NCBI GenBank assembly: GCA_021323635.1 | Contig: JAJPKQ010000037.1 | Span: 1 to 64,000, forward strand | DNA from: a bacterium | Lineage (GTDB): Bacteria > Actinomycetota > Thermoleophilia > Solirubrobacterales > Solirubrobacteraceae | Direction of reading: 5' to 3' | Length of the DNA: 64,000 nucleotides | Part shown: positions 20,463-59,111 of the stretch, one piece after another | Layout: each line of letters starts with the position of its first letter | How positions within the stretch are numbered: the first letter of the stretch is position 1 | Notes under the pieces: generated by a model | What the model was told of the DNA's origin: nothing | Databases searched by the model: none | What the model saw: only the letters and a program-made list of their open reading frames with translations | Made by a program: the position numbers and the translations under genes

Positions 20463-20741
20463 CTACTGCCCGCCACTACCGCCGTCGCTCGTCGGGTCGG
20501 GCTCCTCGTCGGGGCGCCCGCCCGTTGCAGGCAGCTCGCTGGGCAGCGACTCCGGGCTCGACTGCGCGGCCGCGAGGTTCTCGGACTGCACGGCCAGCCA
20601 GATCTCCTCGCGATAGACCGGCAGGTCCTCAGGTGCGGCGATCCCCAGGCGTACCGTCTGGCCGGTGATCTCCATCACCGTCACGACGACATCACCGCCG
20701 ATCACCACGCGCTCGCCCGGGCGTCGCGCAAGTATGAGCAT
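20463..20741 (-). CDS. csrA: carbon storage regulator CsrA
   Basis: RNA-binding translational repressor; the dimer binds GGA motifs in mRNA leaders. Residues 1-55 match CsrA (MLILARRPGERVVIGG, VTVMEITGQTVRLGI, APEDLPVYREEI). The C-terminal ~37 residues are an acidic, Ser/Pro-rich tail not found in short CsrA proteins of about 60 residues. It is encoded next to fliW at the end of the flgF-to-csrA run. In Bacillus and Campylobacter the FliW-CsrA pair ties flagellin synthesis to secretion; the flagellin leaders here carry GGA sites. Confidence 0.95.
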   Translation of the reverse strand: MLILARRPGERVVIGGDVVVTVMEITGQTVRLGIAAPEDLPVYREEIWLAVQSENLAAAQSSPESLPSELPATGGRPDEEPDPTSDGGSGGQ

Positions 20742-20809: not shown

Positions 20810-21253
20810 CTAGGCCGCCGCCTGGGCTCTCGCGCCGCCCAGCAGCGGCACGCGCAGGTCCTCGTCGGGGCCGTTGGTCACGACCTGGAATCCACGCCGT
20901 CCGACCACCAGGATCGGCGCTCGCAGGTTGACGGTCGTCTCGTGCGGATCGGGTCGAGCGCTCACGGCGACATACACGGTCGCATCCTCCGCCTTTGCAA
21001 GCCCAAGCACCTCGCGGTCGGCGGCGGTCAGCTCCAGCGAGTAGTCGGGGCGCACCAGGCGCGGGTCGATCAGCGGCAGCGCCAGCGCCGGGTCGGCGAG
21101 CGACTGCAGCCAGGAGAAGAGCGCGTCGGCACGCTCCGAGAGCAGGACGTAGCGATTGCCCGGCAGCCCGACAAGGCCGTTGGGAAAGTCGATCACATCG
21201 CCCTCGGCGACAGATCGCACTCCAAAGCGGGTTGTCTGGACCTCGATGCTCAT
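20810..21253 (-). CDS. fliW: flagellar assembly factor FliW
   Basis: Protein antagonist of CsrA that also binds unexported flagellin. The 147-residue product shows FliW features: VQTTRFGVRSVAEGDVIDFP, LVGLPGNRYVLL, FSWLQSLADPALALP, and the late VNLRAPILVVG. Located between flgL and csrA, the common arrangement in Gram-positive flagellar loci. Free FliW is expected to bind CsrA and release repression of the flagellin genes at 55.9 and 57.1 kb. Confidence 0.94.
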   Translation of the reverse strand: MSIEVQTTRFGVRSVAEGDVIDFPNGLVGLPGNRYVLLSERADALFSWLQSLADPALALPLIDPRLVRPDYSLELTAADREVLGLAKAEDATVYVAVSARPDPHETTVNLRAPILVVGRRGFQVVTNGPDEDLRVPLLGGARAQAAA

Positions 21254-23530: not shown

Positions 23531-24097
23531 CTATGCCTCCAGATCCAGCACGTGCAGGTCGCTGCGACGGGCGCTCTGCTGGGCGGGCGCGCTGCCGCGG
23601 CGATCGTAAGCGGGCGCGCAGTCCGGCTCAAGCGAGCCCAGCAGGTGGTCGAGGAAGGCAAGTTCGATCCTCATCAGCGCGCGGTTGATCAGGTGCTCTC
23701 GCTGCAGCTGCTCGAGGATGCCGCGCAGCTGGGAGCTGCGTGCGGCAGCCTGCGCCGCCTCCTGCTCGCCCATCAGCGTCGAGATCGCTCCCACCGTGAT
23801 CTGCTCGGGCGCGATGCCCAGCGCCGCCCCCGCTCGCTCAAGCAGCTCGCCGCGGCGCTCCTCAAGCTCGCTCCGGCGCACGAGCTCGCCCTGCAGCAGC
23901 CCAGCGCAGTGCACGACCGCGTGGACATCGCGGCGACGGATCGCCGCGCCCTGGTCGAGCACGATCGCAAGCATCCGCTCCGCGGAGCCAAGCTGAGCGG
24001 CCAGATGCGCGAGCACCGCACGCCCCAGCGGCTCCTCCTCCTCGGCGGTGGCTGGCCGCAGCTGCCATTGCGCAAGCGTTGTGGAGCGCTCGCTCAT
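23531..24097 (-). CDS. flgN: FlgN-like flagellar export chaperone
   Basis: The 188-residue, mostly helical protein sits directly upstream of flgK and flgL, the standard place for their chaperone FlgN. It shows ~140 residues of heptad-rich sequence (LLQGELVRRSELEERRGELLE, LRGILEQLQREHLINRALM) and a basic C-terminal tail. Sequence similarity to FlgN is weak by eye, so the call relies on context, size and helical content. Start ATG overlaps the flgJ-like stop by 4 bases. Confidence 0.75.
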   Translation of the reverse strand: MSERSTTLAQWQLRPATAEEEEPLGRAVLAHLAAQLGSAERMLAIVLDQGAAIRRRDVHAVVHCAGLLQGELVRRSELEERRGELLERAGAALGIAPEQITVGAISTLMGEQEAAQAAARSSQLRGILEQLQREHLINRALMRIELAFLDHLLGSLEPDCAPAYDRRGSAPAQQSARRSDLHVLDLEA

Positions 24098-24564
24098 CCT
24101 GCCGACGCTCCTGTGCCGCCGGCGCCGTGCGTGCCCGCGGCGGGCGCAGCGGCGCCGCCGGCCTGTGCCTGCGCGGGCGTCGGTGAGGCGCCGCCGGCCT
24201 GCTGAGCGCGGTGGGCAAGCGAGCTGGCGAGCCCAAGGCCGCCTGCCCTCTGCAGCGCTTCGGAGAGCACGTGAGGCAGATAGCTTTCCATCACCATCGA
24301 GCCACCCGCGTCGCTGCCGGCCGTAGCTTCTTGCGCTTCTTCGCCGGCGCCCGCCCGCGCCGCTTCGCCTTCTTCTGAGCCGCCAAGCAGGCCCGATGTG
24401 CGCGCCAGCTCGCCGGTAAGCTGTTCAAGCAGCATCCCTTCAAAGGCCTCCCCCTCCTGCCAGGCCTGCTTGACCGCCTGTCCGCCTTCGCGCACGAAGG
24501 CAGGCTCGGCAGCGGTGATCGATGTAGGCAGCGGCGGCGGGCTGCTGTTTGGGTGTGTGCTCAT
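24094..24564 (-). CDS. FlgJ-like rod-binding protein
   Basis: A 156-residue protein resembling the N-terminal rod-binding domain of FlgJ: AFEGMLLEQLTGEL and MVMESYLPHVLSEAL followed by GGLGLASSL. It lacks the muramidase domain found in enteric FlgJ. Separate hydrolases encoded at 38.9 and 58.2 kb may supply that activity. The C-terminus is an Ala/Gly-rich tail. It overlaps flgG by 4 bases upstream and flgN by 4 bases downstream. Confidence 0.82.
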   Translation of the reverse strand: MSTHPNSSPPPLPTSITAAEPAFVREGGQAVKQAWQEGEAFEGMLLEQLTGELARTSGLLGGSEEGEAARAGAGEEAQEATAGSDAGGSMVMESYLPHVLSEALQRAGGLGLASSLAHRAQQAGGASPTPAQAQAGGAAAPAAGTHGAGGTGASAG

Positions 24565-26066: not shown

Positions 26067-26849
26067 CTAGGCCAGCTGCTCGCGCAGGCGCCGGCGCAGC
26101 TCTGTGTGAATCTGCGACACGCGGCTCTCGGAGACGCCGAGGCGCTCGCCGATGTCGCGCAGTGTCCACTCCTCCACGTAGAGCAGCACCGCCACCTGGC
26201 GCTCGCGCTCTGAGAGCGTCCCAAAGGCGGCGCGGAAGCGCTGCTTGATGTCGTTGCGCTCGGCCATCGCCACCGGATCACAGCTCTCATCCTCGCTCTG
26301 CAGGGTGTCGATGCGCTCGATCGCCGTGTCGTCGTCGCCGTTGATCGTCTGATGCAGCGAGCTGACCTCCGCGCGCGATAGCTCATCGAGCCTGCGCGTC
26401 AGCTCCTGCGCTGTGATCTGCAGCTCTGCCGCCAGCTCCTCGCGGGTCGGCTGTCTTTCGGTGCGCTCGGCGAAGCTGCGTCGCGCGGCGTTGATCTGGC
26501 GCTCGGCGGCACGCAGCGACCGCGGCGCCCAGTCGTGGCGGCGGAGCTCGTCGAGCACCGCGCCCTGGATGCGCGTCCAGGCGAACTGCTCGAGCGTCGC
26601 GCCCTTGGCGGGGTCGAAGCGCTCGATCGAGTGCATCAGCGCCTCCATGCCGCAGGAGAGGAAGTCGTCCACCTCGCACTGTGCGGGGATCTCGCGAATC
26701 TTGCGGTAGACGATGTAGCGCACCATCGGCGTGAACATGAAGATCAGCCGATCGCGCACAGCGCGATCACCGCTGCGCTTGTACTCCTGCCAGATGCGCA
26801 GCGCCTCCGAAGCCGTCGGCCTTCTCGTCGGCTTCTCGGTGATTTGCAT
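26067..26849 (-). CDS. fliA: sigma factor FliA/WhiG type (sigma-28)
   Basis: Group 3 RNA polymerase sigma factor for late flagellar genes, 260 residues. Region 2 (RDRLIFMFTPMVRYIVYRK, ALMHSIERFDPAKGATLEQF), region 3 (RSFAERTERQPTREELAAEL) and region 4 (FGTLSERERQVAVLLYVEEW, then ESRVSQIHTELRRRL) are all present. A strong GGAGG lies 7 bases before the ATG. Its predicted targets are the TAAA/TCAA-N15-GCCGAT promoters listed here. No anti-sigma factor FlgM gene was found in the window. Confidence 0.95.
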   Translation of the reverse strand: MQITEKPTRRPTASEALRIWQEYKRSGDRAVRDRLIFMFTPMVRYIVYRKIREIPAQCEVDDFLSCGMEALMHSIERFDPAKGATLEQFAWTRIQGAVLDELRRHDWAPRSLRAAERQINAARRSFAERTERQPTREELAAELQITAQELTRRLDELSRAEVSSLHQTINGDDDTAIERIDTLQSEDESCDPVAMAERNDIKQRFRAAFGTLSERERQVAVLLYVEEWTLRDIGERLGVSESRVSQIHTELRRRLREQLA

Positions 26850-27008
26850 ACGTATCCTCCAACCTTCGAGGGAACAGCCTCACAGGGACGTGGCGCCGGA
26901 GCGCACGCCTGGGCAAGGCATCAGGGACATTAGGGAACAGGTGTGCGGTCTTCTGTAGACCTGCCGTGCGCCTTGCGGAGCACTCCGTGACGCGCGGTCG
27001 GACGCTGC

Positions 27009-33230: not shown

Positions 33231-33577
33231 CGATTCCAGCGATCGGATCCCTCGAAGCGCTCTCGGCACTCTCGCCGAGCACCAACGCGGCGGCCAAGGT
33301 CGGCTCCGAAGCGCCGGCGGGCGGCACGCTCGCCGTCGAAGAAGGCGAAAAGGCAAAGGGCTCCTTCGGCAACGCCCTGGCCAAGGCGCTCAACGCGCTG
33401 GAAGGCTCGCAGTCGAGCGCCGAAGTCGCCGCAGCGGAAGTCGCGACCGGCACCACCGCCAACCCCGAGGCGGCGATCGTGAAGGTCCAGAACGCCGAGC
33501 TTGAGATGCAGCTTGCCTCGCAGATGCGCGCCAAGGCAAGCGAAGCCCTGCAGACGATCTTCCAGACTCAGGTCTAG
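33227..33577 (+). CDS. fliE: flagellar hook-basal body protein FliE
   Basis: Connects the MS ring to the rod. The 116-residue product keeps the FliE C-terminus (LEMQLASQMRAKASEALQTI). The N-terminal ~60 residues are unusually Ala/Gly/Glu-rich and include FGNAL (47-51), a FxxxL element of the kind used by early export substrates. GTG 33227 overlaps flgC by 4 bases. Exported protein with GAA-biased glutamate codons. Confidence 0.9.
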   Translation: MTIPAIGSLEALSALSPSTNAAAKVGSEAPAGGTLAVEEGEKAKGSFGNALAKALNALEGSQSSAEVAAAEVATGTTANPEAAIVKVQNAELEMQLASQMRAKASEALQTIFQTQV

Positions 33578-43754: not shown

Positions 43755-44573
43755 ATGAAGGCTGCAACGGCCATAGGCATCGTTGTCGCGGTCTTTGGGC
43801 TGCTGCTCGGAGCGATGATGGACGGCACAAGCCCGGCCGCCTTCATCGACATCCCTGCGCTCCTGATCATCCTCGGCGGCACCGGCGGCGCGACGATGGC
43901 AAGCGTCGGCATGCCCTCGATGAAGCGCATCCCAAGCCTCTACAAGATGGTCTTCTCCTCCGAGCCGCCCGATCTGCGCGAGCGGCTGGAGCTGTTGGTC
44001 TCGCTTGCCGACAAGGCCCGCCGTGAGGGGCTGCTCGCGCTTGACGCGCAGCTGTCGCAGATCGAGGACTCCTTCACGCGCAACGCGCTGCAGCTCGTCG
44101 TCGATGGCACCGATCCCGAGCTCGTGCACGCGATCCTCGAGGCCGAGATCGACGGCATGGCAGAGCGCCATGAGGCCGCTGCGCGCCCCTTTGAGAAGGC
44201 CGGCGGCTTTGCGCCGACGATGGGGATCATCGGCACGGTGATGGGGCTGGTGCACGTGCTCGGGAACCTCAGCTCGCCAAAGACGCTCGGTCCGGCGATC
44301 GCATCGGCGTTCATGGCGACGCTGATGGGGGTCGGCTCGGCAAACGTCGTCTTCCTGCCGATCGCCAACCGGCTGAAGGCGATCTCTGCCGAAGAGGTAT
44401 CGCTGCGGATGATGACGCTCGAGGGGATCCTCTCGATCCAGTCCGGCGACAATCCGCGCCTGGTTGCCGACAAGCTCTCCTCCTACCTGCCGCCCACCGA
44501 GCGCGCGGCGGATCCCAAGCAGAAGAGCGGCGCGATTGCGCCGAGCCTGCAGGCCGAGCCGGAGGCGGCTTGA
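43755..44573 (+). CDS. motA: flagellar motor stator protein MotA
   Basis: Proton-channel stator subunit with four membrane segments: ~4-26, ~31-50, and the pair near ~150-172 and ~180-202. The product is 272 residues. The cytoplasmic loop (residues ~60-145) carries charged residues that contact FliG, and the TM3/TM4 region GTVMGLVHVL is conserved. It is followed 1 base later by motB. Confidence 0.93.
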   Translation: MKAATAIGIVVAVFGLLLGAMMDGTSPAAFIDIPALLIILGGTGGATMASVGMPSMKRIPSLYKMVFSSEPPDLRERLELLVSLADKARREGLLALDAQLSQIEDSFTRNALQLVVDGTDPELVHAILEAEIDGMAERHEAAARPFEKAGGFAPTMGIIGTVMGLVHVLGNLSSPKTLGPAIASAFMATLMGVGSANVVFLPIANRLKAISAEEVSLRMMTLEGILSIQSGDNPRLVADKLSSYLPPTERAADPKQKSGAIAPSLQAEPEAA

Positions 44574-46315: not shown

Positions 46316-47568
46316 GCGCGAGCGTCGCCGCAGGGGGGATCGCGGAGCGCCGCGGCGATGATCAGGCGCCGGCCGAGCAGATTCACTCGCTTGACTTCTC
46401 TCAGCCGACCAAGTTCAACCCCGAGCTGCGCCGACGCATAGCGCTGGTCCTCGGCCCCTTTTTGAAGTCCGCCGCCATGCGGCTCTCCGGCGAGCTGAAG
46501 GCCACCGTCGAGCTGCACCAGATCGACGCGCGCGAGGTCGCCTGGTCAGCCGCCCGCGGCTCGCTTCCCGAGGACGCCGCACTTGCCGAGATCAAGGTGC
46601 GACCGATCGGCGCCCAGATGCTGCTGGCGGCTGAGCTGCCCCTCCTGCTGCGCGGCATCGAGTGCCTGCTCGGCGGATCGGCGGCCTCGGCGCCGACCGA
46701 GCGGCGGCTGAGCGAGATCGACCTGGCTCTGATTGAAAGGCTGCTGGAGACGACCGTCGCGCAGCTCTCCCTTGCCTGGCGAGACCTCGGCGGGCTGGAG
46801 CTCGAGCTGGGCGAAGTCGATGTCGAGCACGAGCACGACGCAGGCGTCGAGGTGCATATGCGCGAACCGACCTACCTGATCGCAATCAACTTCCTGATTG
46901 CCGAGCTGCCTTCGAGGCTCTTCATCCTGGTGCCCTGGGCCGCAATCGATCCCGTGACCGCGAGCATCCTCGAGCAGGGGTCAAAGCCCGACGCGAACCC
47001 GCGCCACGCGCTGGCGCTGCGCCGCGGCCTTGCGAGCGTGCGGGTTCTGCTGCACGCGGAAGTCGGCGCCTGCCGCATGCCGGTCGCGCGCCTGAGCGCG
47101 CTGCGCGCCGGCGAGGTGCTGCGCCTGCAGGCCAAGGCCGACCAGGGCGTCCGCCTGCTTGCCGACCGCGTGGCGCTCGCCTACGGCACACCGGGACGAT
47201 CGGGCTCCTACAAGGCCCTCAAGCTGAGCGGCCCGGTGGCGCCCGCCCCCGGGCCGGCGCTGCTGCCGCCGCCCTCGCTGCGCGGCGCGCGCAGCGAGGC
47301 GAGCAGCGAGCGCACGCCTCCAGCCGTGCTGCTCGAGCGCATCGCGGCACTGCGCGGGGCAGACCTGCGCGTCTGGGCCGAGCTCGGTCGCGTTGAGCTC
47401 TCCCTGCAGACGGTGCTCTCGTTGCCACCAGGGGCCGTGATCGAGCTCGATGCCGCTGCCGAGGATCCGGTTGCGATCTACGCCAACGGCATGCGTCTGG
47501 CCTCCGGCTCGCTCTTCGTCACCGACGAGGGCGAGTGGGCGGTGCGGCTCGGCGACCCCGGCAGCTAA
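46312..47568 (+). CDS. fliM: flagellar motor switch protein FliM with a second SpoA domain
   Basis: C-ring protein, 418 residues. The middle domain is recognisable (KFNPELRRRIALVLGPF; RLSEIDLALIERLLETTVAQ; YLIAINFLIAELPSRLFIL). Two SpoA-type domains follow, at ~232-306 and ~340-415 (LRVWAELGRVELSLQTVLSL), so it looks like FliM fused to a FliN module. The N-terminal CheY-binding motif of the LSQxEIDxLL type is not seen. TTG 46312 overlaps the fliN stop (TTGA) and is the only plausible start before the conserved part. Confidence 0.88.
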   Translation: MSASVAAGGIAERRGDDQAPAEQIHSLDFSQPTKFNPELRRRIALVLGPFLKSAAMRLSGELKATVELHQIDAREVAWSAARGSLPEDAALAEIKVRPIGAQMLLAAELPLLLRGIECLLGGSAASAPTERRLSEIDLALIERLLETTVAQLSLAWRDLGGLELELGEVDVEHEHDAGVEVHMREPTYLIAINFLIAELPSRLFILVPWAAIDPVTASILEQGSKPDANPRHALALRRGLASVRVLLHAEVGACRMPVARLSALRAGEVLRLQAKADQGVRLLADRVALAYGTPGRSGSYKALKLSGPVAPAPGPALLPPPSLRGARSEASSERTPPAVLLERIAALRGADLRVWAELGRVELSLQTVLSLPPGAVIELDAAAEDPVAIYANGMRLASGSLFVTDEGEWAVRLGDPGS

Positions 47569-47592
47569 AGCGAAGCCGGCTGCTGCCGATTA
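47566..47592 (+). promoter_or_regulatory. sigma-28 promoter of the fliO-flhF operon
   Basis: TAAA (47566-47569, sharing the fliM stop codon), 15 bases, GCCGATTA (47585-47592). It fits the consensus at every core position. The fliO ATG is 47 bases downstream. Confidence 0.8.
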
Positions 47593-47639
47593 CCGGGGCG
47601 TCCCAACCCGGATGCTCCCAACCCGGAAACCGTCCCTCG

Positions 47640-48224
47640 ATGCGGAATGCGACATCGCAACTTCGCGCGGCTTGGCGCGTCGTGCTACCTGCCCTCACCC
47701 TGGCGATCCTGGGGCTCGGCTGCGTGGCCACGCCCGCTGTCGCGGCCTCGCTGATCGCGCACGCGCCATCTGAAGCTACGCCGCTCCACCTCGGCGGAGC
47801 GCCCGCGAGCGCGCATTCGAGCGGCTCGTCGGGCGCGAGCCTGGTGCGCACGATCGTCGGGCTGGCGATCGTGCTCGCGGTCATCTGGGGGCTGACCTGG
47901 GTGCTCAAGCAGTTCAAGGCCAGGGGCGCCGTCAAGGCAGGGGGCTCCGGCCTGCACGCGCTTGCGAGCCTGCCGCTGGGCTCAGGTCGATCGCTCGCGC
48001 TCGTGCGCGCCGGAAGCGACTTCGTCCTGCTCGGCGTGGCCGAGCACGGCGTCGTCCCGATTCACCGCTACAGCGAGGCTGAGGCGCGCGCCGCAGGGCT
48101 TCTCTGCCTCGATCAGAGCAACCCGCTGCTGGCAGAGGAGCTGACCGGCGGCGAGCTGCAGCTTCCCGCCACCGCATCGCAGTCGCTGCTTGACCGCGTG
48201 CGCCGCTGGACGGTCAGGGCATGA
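47640..48224 (+). CDS. fliO: flagellar biosynthetic protein FliO
   Basis: Scaffold for the FliP export gate. The 194-residue product has an N-terminal hydrophobic segment (VLPALTLAILGLGCV, ending AASL), a short linker, a second membrane segment (TIVGLAIVLAVIWGLTWVLK) and a cytoplasmic domain (LPLGSGRSLALVRAGSDFVL, the FliO beta motif). ATG 47640 is preferred; the frame extends further upstream through the promoter. Confidence 0.85.
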   Translation: MRNATSQLRAAWRVVLPALTLAILGLGCVATPAVAASLIAHAPSEATPLHLGGAPASAHSSGSSGASLVRTIVGLAIVLAVIWGLTWVLKQFKARGAVKAGGSGLHALASLPLGSGRSLALVRAGSDFVLLGVAEHGVVPIHRYSEAEARAAGLLCLDQSNPLLAEELTGGELQLPATASQSLLDRVRRWTVRA

Positions 48225-55841: not shown

Positions 55842-55868
55842 TCAAGCTTGCTCCGCTGCTGCCGATCG
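55842..55868 (+). promoter_or_regulatory. sigma-28 promoter of flagellin 1
   Basis: TCAA (55842-55845), 15 bases, GCCGATCG (55861-55868). The flagellin ATG is 68 bases downstream, leaving room for a leader. Confidence 0.8.
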
Positions 55869-55936: not shown

Positions 55937-56728
55937 ATGTCCCTAACGGTCAACACCAACATCGCCGCGCTTGAGGCGCAGCGATACTTGCAGGCCACCG
56001 AAGGCCGACTCTCCTCGACCATGGAAGAGCTCTCCTCGGGCCTGCGCATCAACATTGCCGCAAACGACGTGGCCGGCTACGCGATCAGCGAGGAGCTGGA
56101 AGGCCAGATCAACGGCACCAACCAGGCAGTCCGCAACGTTCAGGACGGCGTCGCGCTCGCGCAGACCGCGCAGGGTGCCCTCAACACCACCGAGGAAATG
56201 CTGCAGCGGATCAGGACGCTGGCGGTGCAGTACAAGAACGGCACCAACTCCAAGGAAGCGCGCGAAGCGATCGCGGGCGAGGTCAAGCAGCTCACCTCGC
56301 AGATCGAACAGATCAGCGAAGTGACAAAGTTCAACGGCGTGAGCCTGCTGGCCGAAGCGGTCAAGATCACCTTCCAGGTCGGCGCCAACCAGGGCGAAAC
56401 GATCACAATCGAAACAAAGAAGCTCTCCGAAGTGGTCGGCGCGATCTCGCTCGCGGAAGAAAACGCGATCGAATCGATCAACGAAAAGGTCAAGAAGGTC
56501 GCTGAAGCAGCCGCCGAATTCGGCGCTATTCAGGACCGCATGCAGTACACCGCGGCCAACCTCGAAGTCTACGGTCAGAACCTCTCCTCGGCCAACAGCG
56601 CCGTCAAGGACGCGAACATGGCAGAAGCGACCGCAGCCTTCGCCCAGGAGCAGATCCTGCAGCAGTCGGGCGTCGCAGTCCTGGCTCAGGCAAACGCCCT
56701 GCCGCAGGCGGTGCTCAAGCTCGTCTGA
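55937..56728 (+). CDS. fliC: flagellin (filament subunit) 1
   Basis: 263-residue flagellin with the conserved D0/D1 ends: LTVNTNIAALEAQRYL, LSSGLRINIAANDVAGYAIS, QTAQGALNTTEEMLQRIR, and C-terminal VKDANMAEATAAFAQEQILQ with a final QAVLKLV. The central domain (~125-190) is short, so there is no D2/D3. Neighbour fliC2 is closely similar at both ends and divergent in the middle. Export through the flagellar gate; chaperone FliS is encoded at 31.6 kb. Likely late, sigma-28 controlled and CsrA/FliW regulated. Confidence 0.95.
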   Translation: MSLTVNTNIAALEAQRYLQATEGRLSSTMEELSSGLRINIAANDVAGYAISEELEGQINGTNQAVRNVQDGVALAQTAQGALNTTEEMLQRIRTLAVQYKNGTNSKEAREAIAGEVKQLTSQIEQISEVTKFNGVSLLAEAVKITFQVGANQGETITIETKKLSEVVGAISLAEENAIESINEKVKKVAEAAAEFGAIQDRMQYTAANLEVYGQNLSSANSAVKDANMAEATAAFAQEQILQQSGVAVLAQANALPQAVLKLV

Positions 56729-56752
56729 TCGGCGAGCCAGACTTCAGAAGCT

Positions 56753-56797
56753 TTCCGGCGGCGGCGCAGAGCGCCGAGCGCGATCCCGCCGCCGGAA
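56753..56797 (+). terminator. inverted repeat after flagellin 1
   Basis: A 12-bp perfect stem TTCCGGCGGCGG (56753-56764) with CCGCCGCCGGAA (56786-56797) around a 21-base loop. It lies 24 bases after the flagellin stop codon. There is no U tract, so factor-independent termination is uncertain; it may instead stabilise the mRNA 3' end. Confidence 0.5.
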
Positions 56798-56820: not shown

Positions 56821-56904
56821 GCGGGGTCATCAACAACGCGCCAAGCGGACAGGGACGGAAAGCAGGCGCTACATACCGCCGGTTCTTCGAGGGAACGGTG
56901 GCAG
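56821..56904 (+). repeat. conserved 84-nt element downstream of flagellin 1
   Basis: Hand alignment with 57976-58058 gives about 72 of 84 identical positions, including CAGGGACGG, ATACCGCCG and TCGAGGGAACGGTGGCAG. It can fold into a stem (GCGCC with GGCGC) and a second stem built from CCGCC-GTTC and GAAC-GGTGG with one bulged purine. It is not coding in any frame that I can support. It is followed directly by a GC-rich hairpin. Function unknown. Confidence 0.65.
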
Positions 56905-56934
56905 GCAGCGGGCGGCGCAGCCGCCCGCTCTGCC
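56904..56934 (+). terminator. GC-rich hairpin after the 84-nt element (copy 1)
   Basis: GGCAG and CGGGCGGC pair with GCCGCCCG and CTGCC across a 3-base loop, with a 2-base bulge. It lacks a U tract. In copy 2 the matching hairpin is a perfect 12-bp stem. Confidence 0.4.
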
Positions 56935-56991
56935 GTCTGGCCCGGGCGCGCACGAGCCGCTACCGCCGCGTCCAGCGCTCGGGCGCGCCCC

Positions 56992-57018
56992 TCAAGTCTG
57001 ACCGCGCGCTGCCGATGA
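56992..57018 (+). promoter_or_regulatory. sigma-28 promoter of flagellin 2
   Basis: TCAA (56992-56995), 15 bases, GCCGATGA (57011-57018). The ATG is at 57089, 70 bases on. Confidence 0.78.
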
Positions 57019-57031
57019 CCATGACTGAAGG

Positions 57032-57048
57032 GCCGACAGGGAGTCGGC
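57032..57048 (+). promoter_or_regulatory. CsrA-type hairpin in the flagellin 2 leader
   Basis: GCCGAC (57032-57037) pairs perfectly with GTCGGC (57043-57048), leaving the loop AGGGA, so a GGA sits in a hairpin loop. This is the preferred CsrA binding shape. A second GGA is in the Shine-Dalgarno CAAGGAG (57074-57079), 10 bases before the ATG. Bridging both by a CsrA dimer would block ribosome entry. Confidence 0.6.
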
Positions 57049-57088
57049 TCGGGACTAGCAAACCCACGACATCAAGGAGATGTGACGC

Positions 57089-57880
57089 ATGTCCCTTACG
57101 ATCAACACCAATGTCGCCGCGCTTGAGGCGCAGCGCTACCTGCAGAACACCGAATCACGGCTGTCCACCACAATGGAACAGCTCTCCTCGGGCCTGCGCA
57201 TCAACATCGCAGCAAACGACGTTGCCGGTTACGCGATCAGCCAGGAGCTGGAAGGCCAGATCAACGGCTCCAACCAGGCTGTCCACAACGTCCAGGACGG
57301 GGTCGCGCTCTCGCAGACCGCCCAGGGCGCGCTGAACACCACGGAGGAAATCCTCCAGCGGATCCGGACCCTGGCGGTGCAGTACAAGAACGGCACCAAC
57401 TCCGAAGAAGCCAAGAAGGCGATCGAAGGCGAGGTCACCCAGCTCGTCTCGCAGGTCGAAAAGATCGGCGAAGTGACGAAGTTCAACGGCGTGGCGCTGC
57501 TCAAGGAAGCCGGCTCGATCACCTTCCAGGTCGGCGCCAACAAGGGCGAAGAAATCAGCGTCACGCTGAAGTCGCTCAAGACCGAAGTGGGCACGATCTC
57601 ACTCGGCGAAGAAACGGCGATCACGAACATCAGCACTGCAATCAAGAAGGTCGCTGAAATGGCCTCCGAATTCGGCTCTGTCCAGGACCGCATGCAGTAC
57701 ACCGCAGCGAACCTGGAAGTCTACAGCCAGAACCTCTCCGCGGCAAACAGCGCGGTGAAGGACGCGAACATGGCCGAATCGACAGCAGCATTCGCCCAGG
57801 AGCAGATCCTCCAGCAGTCGGGCGTCGCGGTGCTGGCCCAGGCCAACGCCCTGCCGCAGGCGGTGCTCAAGCTCGTCTGA
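57089..57880 (+). CDS. fliC: flagellin (filament subunit) 2
   Basis: 263-residue paralogue of flagellin 1, same length, with LTINTNVAALEAQRYLQNTE at the start and the same VKDANMAESTAAFAQEQI and QAVLKLV end. The middle differs, for example SITFQVGANKGEEISVTLK. Both lack D2/D3 domains. Tandem flagellins in one locus allow filaments of mixed composition or dose effects. It has its own promoter and CsrA-type leader. Glutamate codons are mainly GAA. Confidence 0.95.
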   Translation: MSLTINTNVAALEAQRYLQNTESRLSTTMEQLSSGLRINIAANDVAGYAISQELEGQINGSNQAVHNVQDGVALSQTAQGALNTTEEILQRIRTLAVQYKNGTNSEEAKKAIEGEVTQLVSQVEKIGEVTKFNGVALLKEAGSITFQVGANKGEEISVTLKSLKTEVGTISLGEETAITNISTAIKKVAEMASEFGSVQDRMQYTAANLEVYSQNLSAANSAVKDANMAESTAAFAQEQILQQSGVAVLAQANALPQAVLKLV

Positions 57881-57907
57881 GCCGCCGGCTGAGGCGCCAA
57901 CAAGCTT

Positions 57908-57947
57908 CCCACGTGGCGGCGCACTGCGGGCGCGCCGCCACCGTGGG
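57908..57947 (+). terminator. inverted repeat after flagellin 2
   Basis: CCCAC and GTGGCGGCGC (57908-57922) pair with GCGCCGCCAC and GTGGG (57932-57947) with one bulged base. It begins 27 bases after the stop. No U tract, so role in termination is uncertain. Confidence 0.5.
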
Positions 57948-57975
57948 GGGATCCCGCCGCAAGCCTTCAACCCTT

Positions 57976-58058
57976 GCGGGGTCACAAAAAAGCGCCACGC
58001 GGCCAGGGACGGGCAGCGGGCGCCATATACCGCCGATTCATCGAGGGAACGGTGGCAG
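57976..58058 (+). repeat. conserved 84-nt element downstream of flagellin 2
   Basis: Second copy of the element at 56821-56904, 83 bases. Substitutions tend to keep the pairing of the CCGCC/GGTGG stem and its bulged purine. Located between the flagellin 2 repeat and the perfect hairpin at 58060-58086. Function unknown. Confidence 0.65.
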
Positions 58059-58059
58059 C

Positions 58060-58086
58060 GAGCGGGCGGCCAAGGGCCGCCCGCTC
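58060..58086 (+). terminator. perfect 12-bp hairpin after the 84-nt element (copy 2)
   Basis: GAGCGGGCGGCC (58060-58071) pairs with GGCCGCCCGCTC (58075-58086) across a 3-base loop. The following CTCGTTTCG is only a weak U tract. This is a good candidate for intrinsic termination in a GC-rich genome, ahead of the next promoter at 58165. Confidence 0.6.
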
Positions 58087-58199: not shown

Positions 58200-59111
58200 A
58201 TGTCAGGGCAAGACGCGATCGAACGCGTCGCGGAAGTGACGGGCGCGGCCGCCCCGCCGCAGGGAAGCCTCTCGCCCTACCCACTCTCCGGCGCAGCCCC
58301 CGGCGCCGCGACGGCGGCGTCGGGTACTCAGCCTGCCACCGCGCCCGAGTCCCCCACCGCAAGCGCCCAGGTCGCCTCCTTTGCGGCGGCGCTGAGCGAG
58401 GCAGAGATGGCGATGCTCGCCCAGAGCTCGATGGCGGCGCTTGCTCAGGGAGGCGAAGGGGTCGGCGCCAGCAGTGCAGGATCGACCCTGGCGCTCCTGA
58501 CCGACGAGCTGCAGAGCCTGATCTCGACGCTTCCCGGCGCCCTCGCGCAGGGCGCCTGCCTGCAGGCGCCCGCCGGCGCGAGCGCGTCGGGCAGCCTGGC
58601 CCCCGCCGGCGCGCTGAGCGGCATCTCCGCAGGCGCCCCGGCCGGTGCGCTGGCTGCAAGCGGCCCGGAAGCGCTTCGTGAACGCATCGTGCACATTGCC
58701 GAAGGCCAGGCCGGGCAGCACGAGGAACCGATGGGGTCAAACGAAGGCGCCGCGGTTGCGATGTACAGAGGCGCCACGCGCGGGGCGATCCCCGGCGCCC
58801 CCTGGTGCGCCTACTTTGTCTCCTGGGTCGCGCGTCAGGCCGGCGAGCCGATCGGCTCCGAAGGCCAGGGGCTCGGCGCCGTCTCGGAGATCTGGGAATG
58901 GGCCCAGCAGAGCGGACGGGCGATCCCAAACGGACCGGGCGTCGTGCCCAAGCCGGGCGATCTGATCGTCTTCGGCGACGAACACGTGGGCATCGTGCGC
59001 GGGGTGCTGCCCAACGGTCAGATCGAGACCGTCGAGGGCAACTACGAAAACAAGGTCGCGCTCAATGTGCGCTCACCCTCCGAACCGACCGGCTACGTGG
59101 AAATGGGGTGA
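58200..59111 (+). CDS. CHAP-domain peptidoglycan amidase/peptidase
   Basis: 303 residues. N-terminal ~160 are disordered Ala/Gly/Ser/Pro sequence with no Sec signal, and FAAAL (61-65) resembling a flagellar export element. The C-terminal CHAP domain carries the catalytic Cys203 (APWCAYFVSWVA) and His262 (GDEHVGIV). Such enzymes cut peptide cross-links. Own sigma-28 promoter and position after the flagellins suggest a role in filament passage or remodelling at the cell wall. Confidence 0.85.
   Translation: MSGQDAIERVAEVTGAAAPPQGSLSPYPLSGAAPGAATAASGTQPATAPESPTASAQVASFAAALSEAEMAMLAQSSMAALAQGGEGVGASSAGSTLALLTDELQSLISTLPGALAQGACLQAPAGASASGSLAPAGALSGISAGAPAGALAASGPEALRERIVHIAEGQAGQHEEPMGSNEGAAVAMYRGATRGAIPGAPWCAYFVSWVARQAGEPIGSEGQGLGAVSEIWEWAQQSGRAIPNGPGVVPKPGDLIVFGDEHVGIVRGVLPNGQIETVEGNYENKVALNVRSPSEPTGYVEMG

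Follow-up and report, generated by a model that had tools for sequence, protein, structure and literature searches.

The 3' ends of the flagellin messenger RNAs (mRNAs) encoded in a 64-kb stretch of a Solirubrobacteraceae genome probably form a base-pairing regulatory RNA that exerts feedback on fliO and fliA, a reading to which we assign a probability of about 77%. The stretch analysed, referred to as the window, comprises positions 1 to 64,000 of contig JAJPKQ010000037.1 (assembly GCA_021323635.1) and contains the flagellar cluster of a draft genome of 2.64 Mb in 46 contigs. Solirubrobacteraceae are a family of soil actinobacteria (Actinomycetota). The reading is based on sequence, conservation, covariation of the RNA fold, and complementarity to the start regions of both genes, which is conserved and strand-specific. 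From these, we infer that the RNA is transcribed and processed, that it actually pairs with the two mRNAs, that it represses rather than activates them, and what its physiological role may be.

Two copies of the element are present in the window (56821-56904 and 57976-58058), one behind each flagellin gene. As stated in a preliminary description of the locus, they are similar and non-coding, with 86% identity over 84 nucleotides (nt), and each lies between strong hairpins, namely A/B upstream and the terminator-like hairpin T downstream. The module is larger than these 84 nt and consists of hairpin C, a linker, hairpin D, and hairpin T. No third convincing copy was found in the same genome. 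Sigma-28-like promoters (T[AC]AAG-N14-GCCGAT, consensus-like and recognized by sequence only) precede both flagellin genes, the downstream CHAP-domain protein gene, fliO, and the flagellin genes of relatives. These positions place each copy in the 3' untranslated region (UTR) of the preceding flagellin, ending ahead of the next promoter.

Conservation in relatives, without which the copies might have represented a recent duplication, was established with two covariance models. Model R1, built from 9 sequences, detected weak relatives in other genera, and further members were added by exact-pattern search and reading of the genomic context. Model R2, built from 21 sequences and covering hairpins D and T, yields 27 copies (E<1e-3), which are distributed over five genera and 23 of the 146 family genomes. 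Across 396 genomes of the phylum, R2 found nothing convincing besides the genome of the window itself; matches at E 0.002-0.009 were judged to be due to chance on reading, as were the pattern matches outside the family, most of which look coding. In the following, genera are labelled g1 (the genus of the window), g35 and g39, and genomes G with a number. In g1, the element is found in the 7 flagellin-bearing genomes and no convincing copy in the other 17. The great majority of copies (24/27) are located directly behind a flagellin gene. Such a flagellin-linked copy is found in 7/7, 5/7 and 8/10 of the flagellin-bearing genomes of g1, g35 and g39, respectively. G087 carries one copy among four tandem flagellins, some of which are followed by a plain hairpin instead.

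The remaining 3 copies are free-standing (G138, G064, G119). In G138, a PilZ gene precedes the copy, and a FliA/WhiG-type sigma gene lies at a distance of 1.6 kb. The G064 copy is intergenic with TTGACA-N17-TCCAAT upstream, as read by eye; a sigma-70 scan around two of the free-standing copies returned nothing at its thresholds. The G119 copy is preceded at a distance of ~100 nt by a sigma-28-type TAAAG-N14-GCCGATTA, the sole such site in 20 kb. Neither G119 nor G138 has a flagellin or FlhA match, yet a FliA-like sigma factor is present in both.

The fold of the module is supported by covariation well above that of shuffled and slid controls. Paired cells account for 94.6% of the whole structure, in which 35 two-sided changes are observed, compared to a mean of 6.8 for shuffled alignments and at most 10 for slid controls; none of 500 shuffles reaches the observed paired fraction and number of two-sided changes. 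The stem of hairpin C covaries (GCUUC/GAAGC vs GCGCC/GGCGC), while its loop varies. The linker between C and D reads CAYAUA in g1, has variants in g39 and the free-standing copies, and is not kept in g35. The conserved CCGCC/GGTGG pairing that had already been recognized is the stem of hairpin D, separated by a 1x1 mismatch from an apical UYC/GGA helix. A purine previously regarded as bulged is located within this mismatch. The tip of hairpin D, U-Y-C-[(A/U)UCGAG]-G-G-A with Y being U or C opposite G, is invariant in all 21 aligned copies. According to structure prediction, its hexaloop is largely single-stranded and its GGA side largely paired (exceptions: G129, G064, G085a). Hairpin T is likewise present in 21/21 aligned copies, with two-sided changes at 9 of 10 pairs and a U run that is weak in some, including copy 1. 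As anticipated in the preliminary description, the module matches no known family: an Rfam scan gave no match at gathering score, and a permissive scan to E = 10 gave just weak matches to unrelated families, RF01051 not among them. A GTG translation start inside the module was dismissed since its frame is not conserved, as judged by eye.

To find possible partners, the window was scanned for perfect complements of at least 10 nt of the hairpin D tip. Outside the copies, matches were found in the fliA leader (12 nt, copy 1), at the fliO start (10 nt, copy 2), in the motA coding sequence at 43914 (11 nt) and at 33248 (10 nt). No claim is made on the latter two. The fliA and fliO sites are located at translation starts and were therefore chosen for testing in relatives. 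Pairing of the RNA with the flagellin's own start (AUGUCCCU) was rejected, as it extends over merely 5-6 nt and the same start occurs in flagellins without the RNA. Duplex energies of 36-nt RNA pieces compared to shuffled sequences were uninformative, since GC-rich flanks dominate.

The core UYC[A/U]UCGAGGGA of the RNA is the reverse complement of UCCCUCGAUG at fliO. The word [T/C]CCCTCG-ATG is found in all 14 fliO leaders of the genera that have flagellin-linked copies (g1, g35 and g39); it is missing from the four leaders of other genera (G064, G065, G105, G164). Leader columns -6 to -1 are invariant and column -7 is conserved to 86%, with neighbouring columns mostly at 36-71%. When each RNA is compared to the fliO leader of its own genome, 9-11 contiguous nucleotides around the start codon are complementary in all 11 genomes with a flagellin-linked copy and an available leader; the G017 leader, added afterwards, also agrees. 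The fliO leaders are short (47566-47639 in the window, and similarly in relatives). Most contain a short hairpin immediately 5' of the site, with a Shine-Dalgarno-like stretch in the 3' arm, compensatory changes in the stem (GACUC/GAGUC, GACCC/GGGUC, GACCU/AGGUC) and, in several, the loop UCCCUC. For G132, the AUG within the word is possibly part of the leader hairpin loop, with the true start downstream.

At fliA, CCCTCGA is found 22-33 nt upstream of the start, close before the Shine-Dalgarno sequence, in 15 of the 23 RNA-bearing genomes, compared to 1 of 22 genomes that lack the RNA (Fisher 1.7e-5, a figure that ignores shared ancestry). Among the genomes with the RNA, the word is present in 7/7 of g1, 5/5 of g35 and 3/9 of g39. 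RNA and site correspond beyond this word: GGGAAC in the RNA faces GTTCCC at the site in g1 except for G020, and GGGAC faces GTCCC in G085 and G081 and, via a G-U pair, in G087. G128 has a different 9-nt complement further upstream of fliA. Masking of the fliA site slightly increases the predicted accessibility of the Shine-Dalgarno sequence in most genomes.

The shared word (TCCCTCGA/TCGAGGGA) might instead be a DNA site for a transcription factor acting at the fliO, fliA and flagellin loci, a view favoured by its presence at several flagellar loci and by the TCGA palindrome within it. We consider this improbable. At the flagellin end, the word is always enclosed in a covarying RNA hairpin with the terminator-like hairpin next to it. 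Its orientation at the target sites is strictly opposite, the same-strand word TCGAGGG being absent from all 62 fliO and fliA start regions, and in 14/14 fliO leaders its distance to the adjoining start codon is constant.

A similarly low likelihood is assigned to a role of the module as a binding site or decoy for CsrA within a FliW-CsrA circuit. Both csrA and fliW are encoded in the cluster, hairpins with ANGGA loops occur in flagellin leaders, and AGGGA is always present in hairpin D, as is ANGGA in the hairpin C loops of 5/9 copies from the genus. In the flagellin leader hairpins, however, the N of ANGGA varies, while the whole 12-nt core of the module is fixed. The AGGGA of hairpin D is predicted to be mostly paired and the loop of hairpin C lacks conservation, so an ANGGA that is exposed in a loop and conserved as such is not found in the module. 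Binding of CsrA also leaves the complement at fliO and fliA unexplained.

Slightly less probable still is a mere 3'-end structure that terminates transcription or guards flagellin mRNA from decay. It would suit the strong terminator-like hairpin that is always found at the end and the expected abundance of flagellin mRNA. It does not account for varying stems around a constant D loop, for flagellins of the same array in G087 that have a plain hairpin without the module, for the free-standing copies, or for the complementary start sites. The earlier suggestion of a regulatory RNA in the 3' UTR that belongs to no known family is supported, given the missing Rfam match and the conservation in relatives. 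Its alternative, an element that serves the processing or stability of flagellin mRNA, is a less good reading, as copies exist away from flagellins and the invariant part complements the fliO and fliA translation starts. A remnant or variant of a cyclic-di-GMP (c-di-GMP)-type riboswitch, considered because of the similarity of GGGACGGAAAGC in copy 1 to part of the c-di-GMP-I core, can practically be dismissed: the likeness is coincidental, as the stretch lies in the variable hairpin C and is absent in relatives, no match to RF01051 or any other Rfam family was obtained, and the element is located behind a gene while the next gene has its own promoter.

Several observations weigh against a regulatory RNA that pairs with fliO and fliA. 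The genera are few, so that the Fisher values ignore kinship. The fliA word is missing in 8 of the 23 RNA-bearing genomes (six of nine in g39, G138 and G064), the fliA sites of G082 and G084 lose one pair, and in G020 the word precedes a second fliA-like gene, not the fliA of the flagellar contig. G083 has the fliO site and G086 has both sites, though no RNA was found in either. Copies are present in the non-flagellated G119 and G138, where no target is assigned. Finally, the GGA part of the seed is predicted to be paired within hairpin D.

In the proposed mechanism, the RNA would act either as part of the flagellin mRNA or after release, as a small RNA with its 3' end at its own terminator. 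Action in trans is favoured because of the free-standing copies and the single copy among the four tandem flagellins of G087. The tip of hairpin D would present the loop AUCGAG, which together with the adjoining 3' arm (AUCGAGGGA[A/C]) could pair with UCCCUCG-AUG at the fliO start codon and with (G)UUCCCUCGA or GUCCCUCGA just 5' of the fliA Shine-Dalgarno sequence. As the site covers the fliO start codon and adjoins the fliA Shine-Dalgarno sequence, a block of translation initiation would be the simplest and most likely effect. At fliA, activation may occur instead of repression, given the predicted gain in accessibility. Given the apparent sigma-28 dependence of the flagellin promoters, transcription of flagellin would in turn influence both the export-gate operon and sigma-28. 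A more specific and rather doubtful idea is that the RNA serves as a flagellar checkpoint, in which the output of flagellin, a gene of the last stage, dampens both the export-gate operon and sigma-28, as an RNA counterpart of FlgM. Elsewhere, FlgM provides such a checkpoint by protein. The surroundings of flgJ and flgN are the usual neighbourhood of flgM; by eye, no flgM-like gene is found between the flgJ-like and flgN-like genes of the window (23531-24564, minus strand), the rest of the genome not having been searched.

Table 1 Features of the flagellar cluster and of the two module copies in the window
Feature	Position	Strand	Remarks
csrA, fliW	20586-20741, 20843-21193	-	behind flgL
fliA, flagellar sigma factor (sigma-28 / WhiG family)	26067..26849	-	TIGR02479 above cut-off
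Candidate target site GTTCCCTCGAAG in fliA leader	26864..26875	-	3 nt before GGAGG; conserved in relatives
Sigma-28-like promoter of fliO, TAAAG-N14-GCCGAT	47566..47590	+	relatives have one too
Candidate target site TCCCTCG-ATG at fliO	47633..47642	+	overlaps fliO start codon; invariant in 14 leaders, three genera
fliO	47640..48224	+	TIGR03500 53.8 bits vs cut-off 55.25; directly upstream of fliPQR-flhB-flhA run
Sigma-28-like promoter of flagellin 1, TCAAG-N14-GCCGAT	55842..55866	+	
Flagellin 1	55937..56728	+	Pfam PF00669 and PF00700
Copy 1 hairpin A	56752..56797	+	behind flagellin 1 stop codon
Copy 1 hairpin C	56838..56869	+	covarying outer stem, variable loop
Copy 1 hairpin D	56875..56902	+	
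Copy 1 candidate seed CUUCGAGGGAAC	56885..56896	+	12 nt complementary to fliA leader
Copy 1 terminator-like hairpin T	56900..56934	+	without clear T run; missed by consensus terminator scan
Sigma-28-like promoter of flagellin 2	56992..57016	+	
Flagellin 2	57089..57880	+	tandem with flagellin 1
Copy 2 hairpin A	57908..57950	+	
Copy 2 hairpin C	57992..58023	+	
Copy 2 hairpin D	58029..58056	+	
Copy 2 candidate seed CAUCGAGGGAAC	58039..58050	+	10 nt complementary to fliO start, 10 nt to fliA leader
Copy 2 terminator-like hairpin T	58060..58086	+	
CHAP-domain protein gene	58200-59111	+	3' of flagellins

The genes and leaders around the module are listed in Table 1. The CHAP-domain protein gene is almost leaderless and is preceded by a separate sigma-28-like promoter; comparable short-leader genes are found behind flagellins in several relatives. 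Flagellin leaders across the family contain two hairpins with ANGGA loops, as expected of CsrA sites (57020-57088 in the window): GCGAC-AUGGA-GUCGC, in which the N varies, and CAUC-AAGGA-GAUG at the Shine-Dalgarno sequence. Of these, the first has apparently been lost from the leader of flagellin 1 in the window. Flagellated genomes of g1 have two csrA genes and most non-flagellated ones have one.

If correct, the module would represent a new RNA family whose likely targets were found from sequence alone, and flagellin output would be coupled to earlier flagellar genes via the 3' end of the flagellin message well outside enterobacteria. Literature searches of open-access papers returned no earlier description of a regulatory RNA from a flagellin 3' UTR in this group or in actinobacteria. 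Owing to their shortness and exact definition, the candidate pairs lend themselves to experimental testing.

The closest known analogue is FliX, a small RNA processed from the 3' UTR of the E. coli flagellin gene fliC, which pairs within the coding sequences of S10-operon and fliC mRNAs (PMC10578931). Like FliX, the module lies in a flagellin 3' UTR, in its case downstream of a sigma-28-like promoter, and has flagellar output as its proposed base-pairing target. Location in the flagellin 3' UTR (24/27 copies) and a terminator-like hairpin at the end (21/21 aligned copies, some with a weak U run) are expected of such an RNA and are found here. The likeness is one of origin and principle between different phyla, and no homology is claimed. 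In contrast to FliX, which acts within coding sequences, the module has its conserved complement where translation of fliO and fliA begins. Tandem flagellins can be followed by several copies, and some relatives have copies that stand alone. Sigma-28-dependent small RNAs that tune the flagellar hierarchy are described for Campylobacter jejuni (PMC11187230, PMC4626219). They are FliA-dependent and belong to an unrelated phylum; the likeness to the module is one of description. The FliW-CsrA control of flagellin (e.g. PMC6529632, PMC4894983) is a further case of post-transcriptional control around flagellin, and its parts are present in the cluster of the window. There, a protein acts on flagellin mRNA, whereas here an RNA at the tail of the flagellin message would act on other mRNAs.
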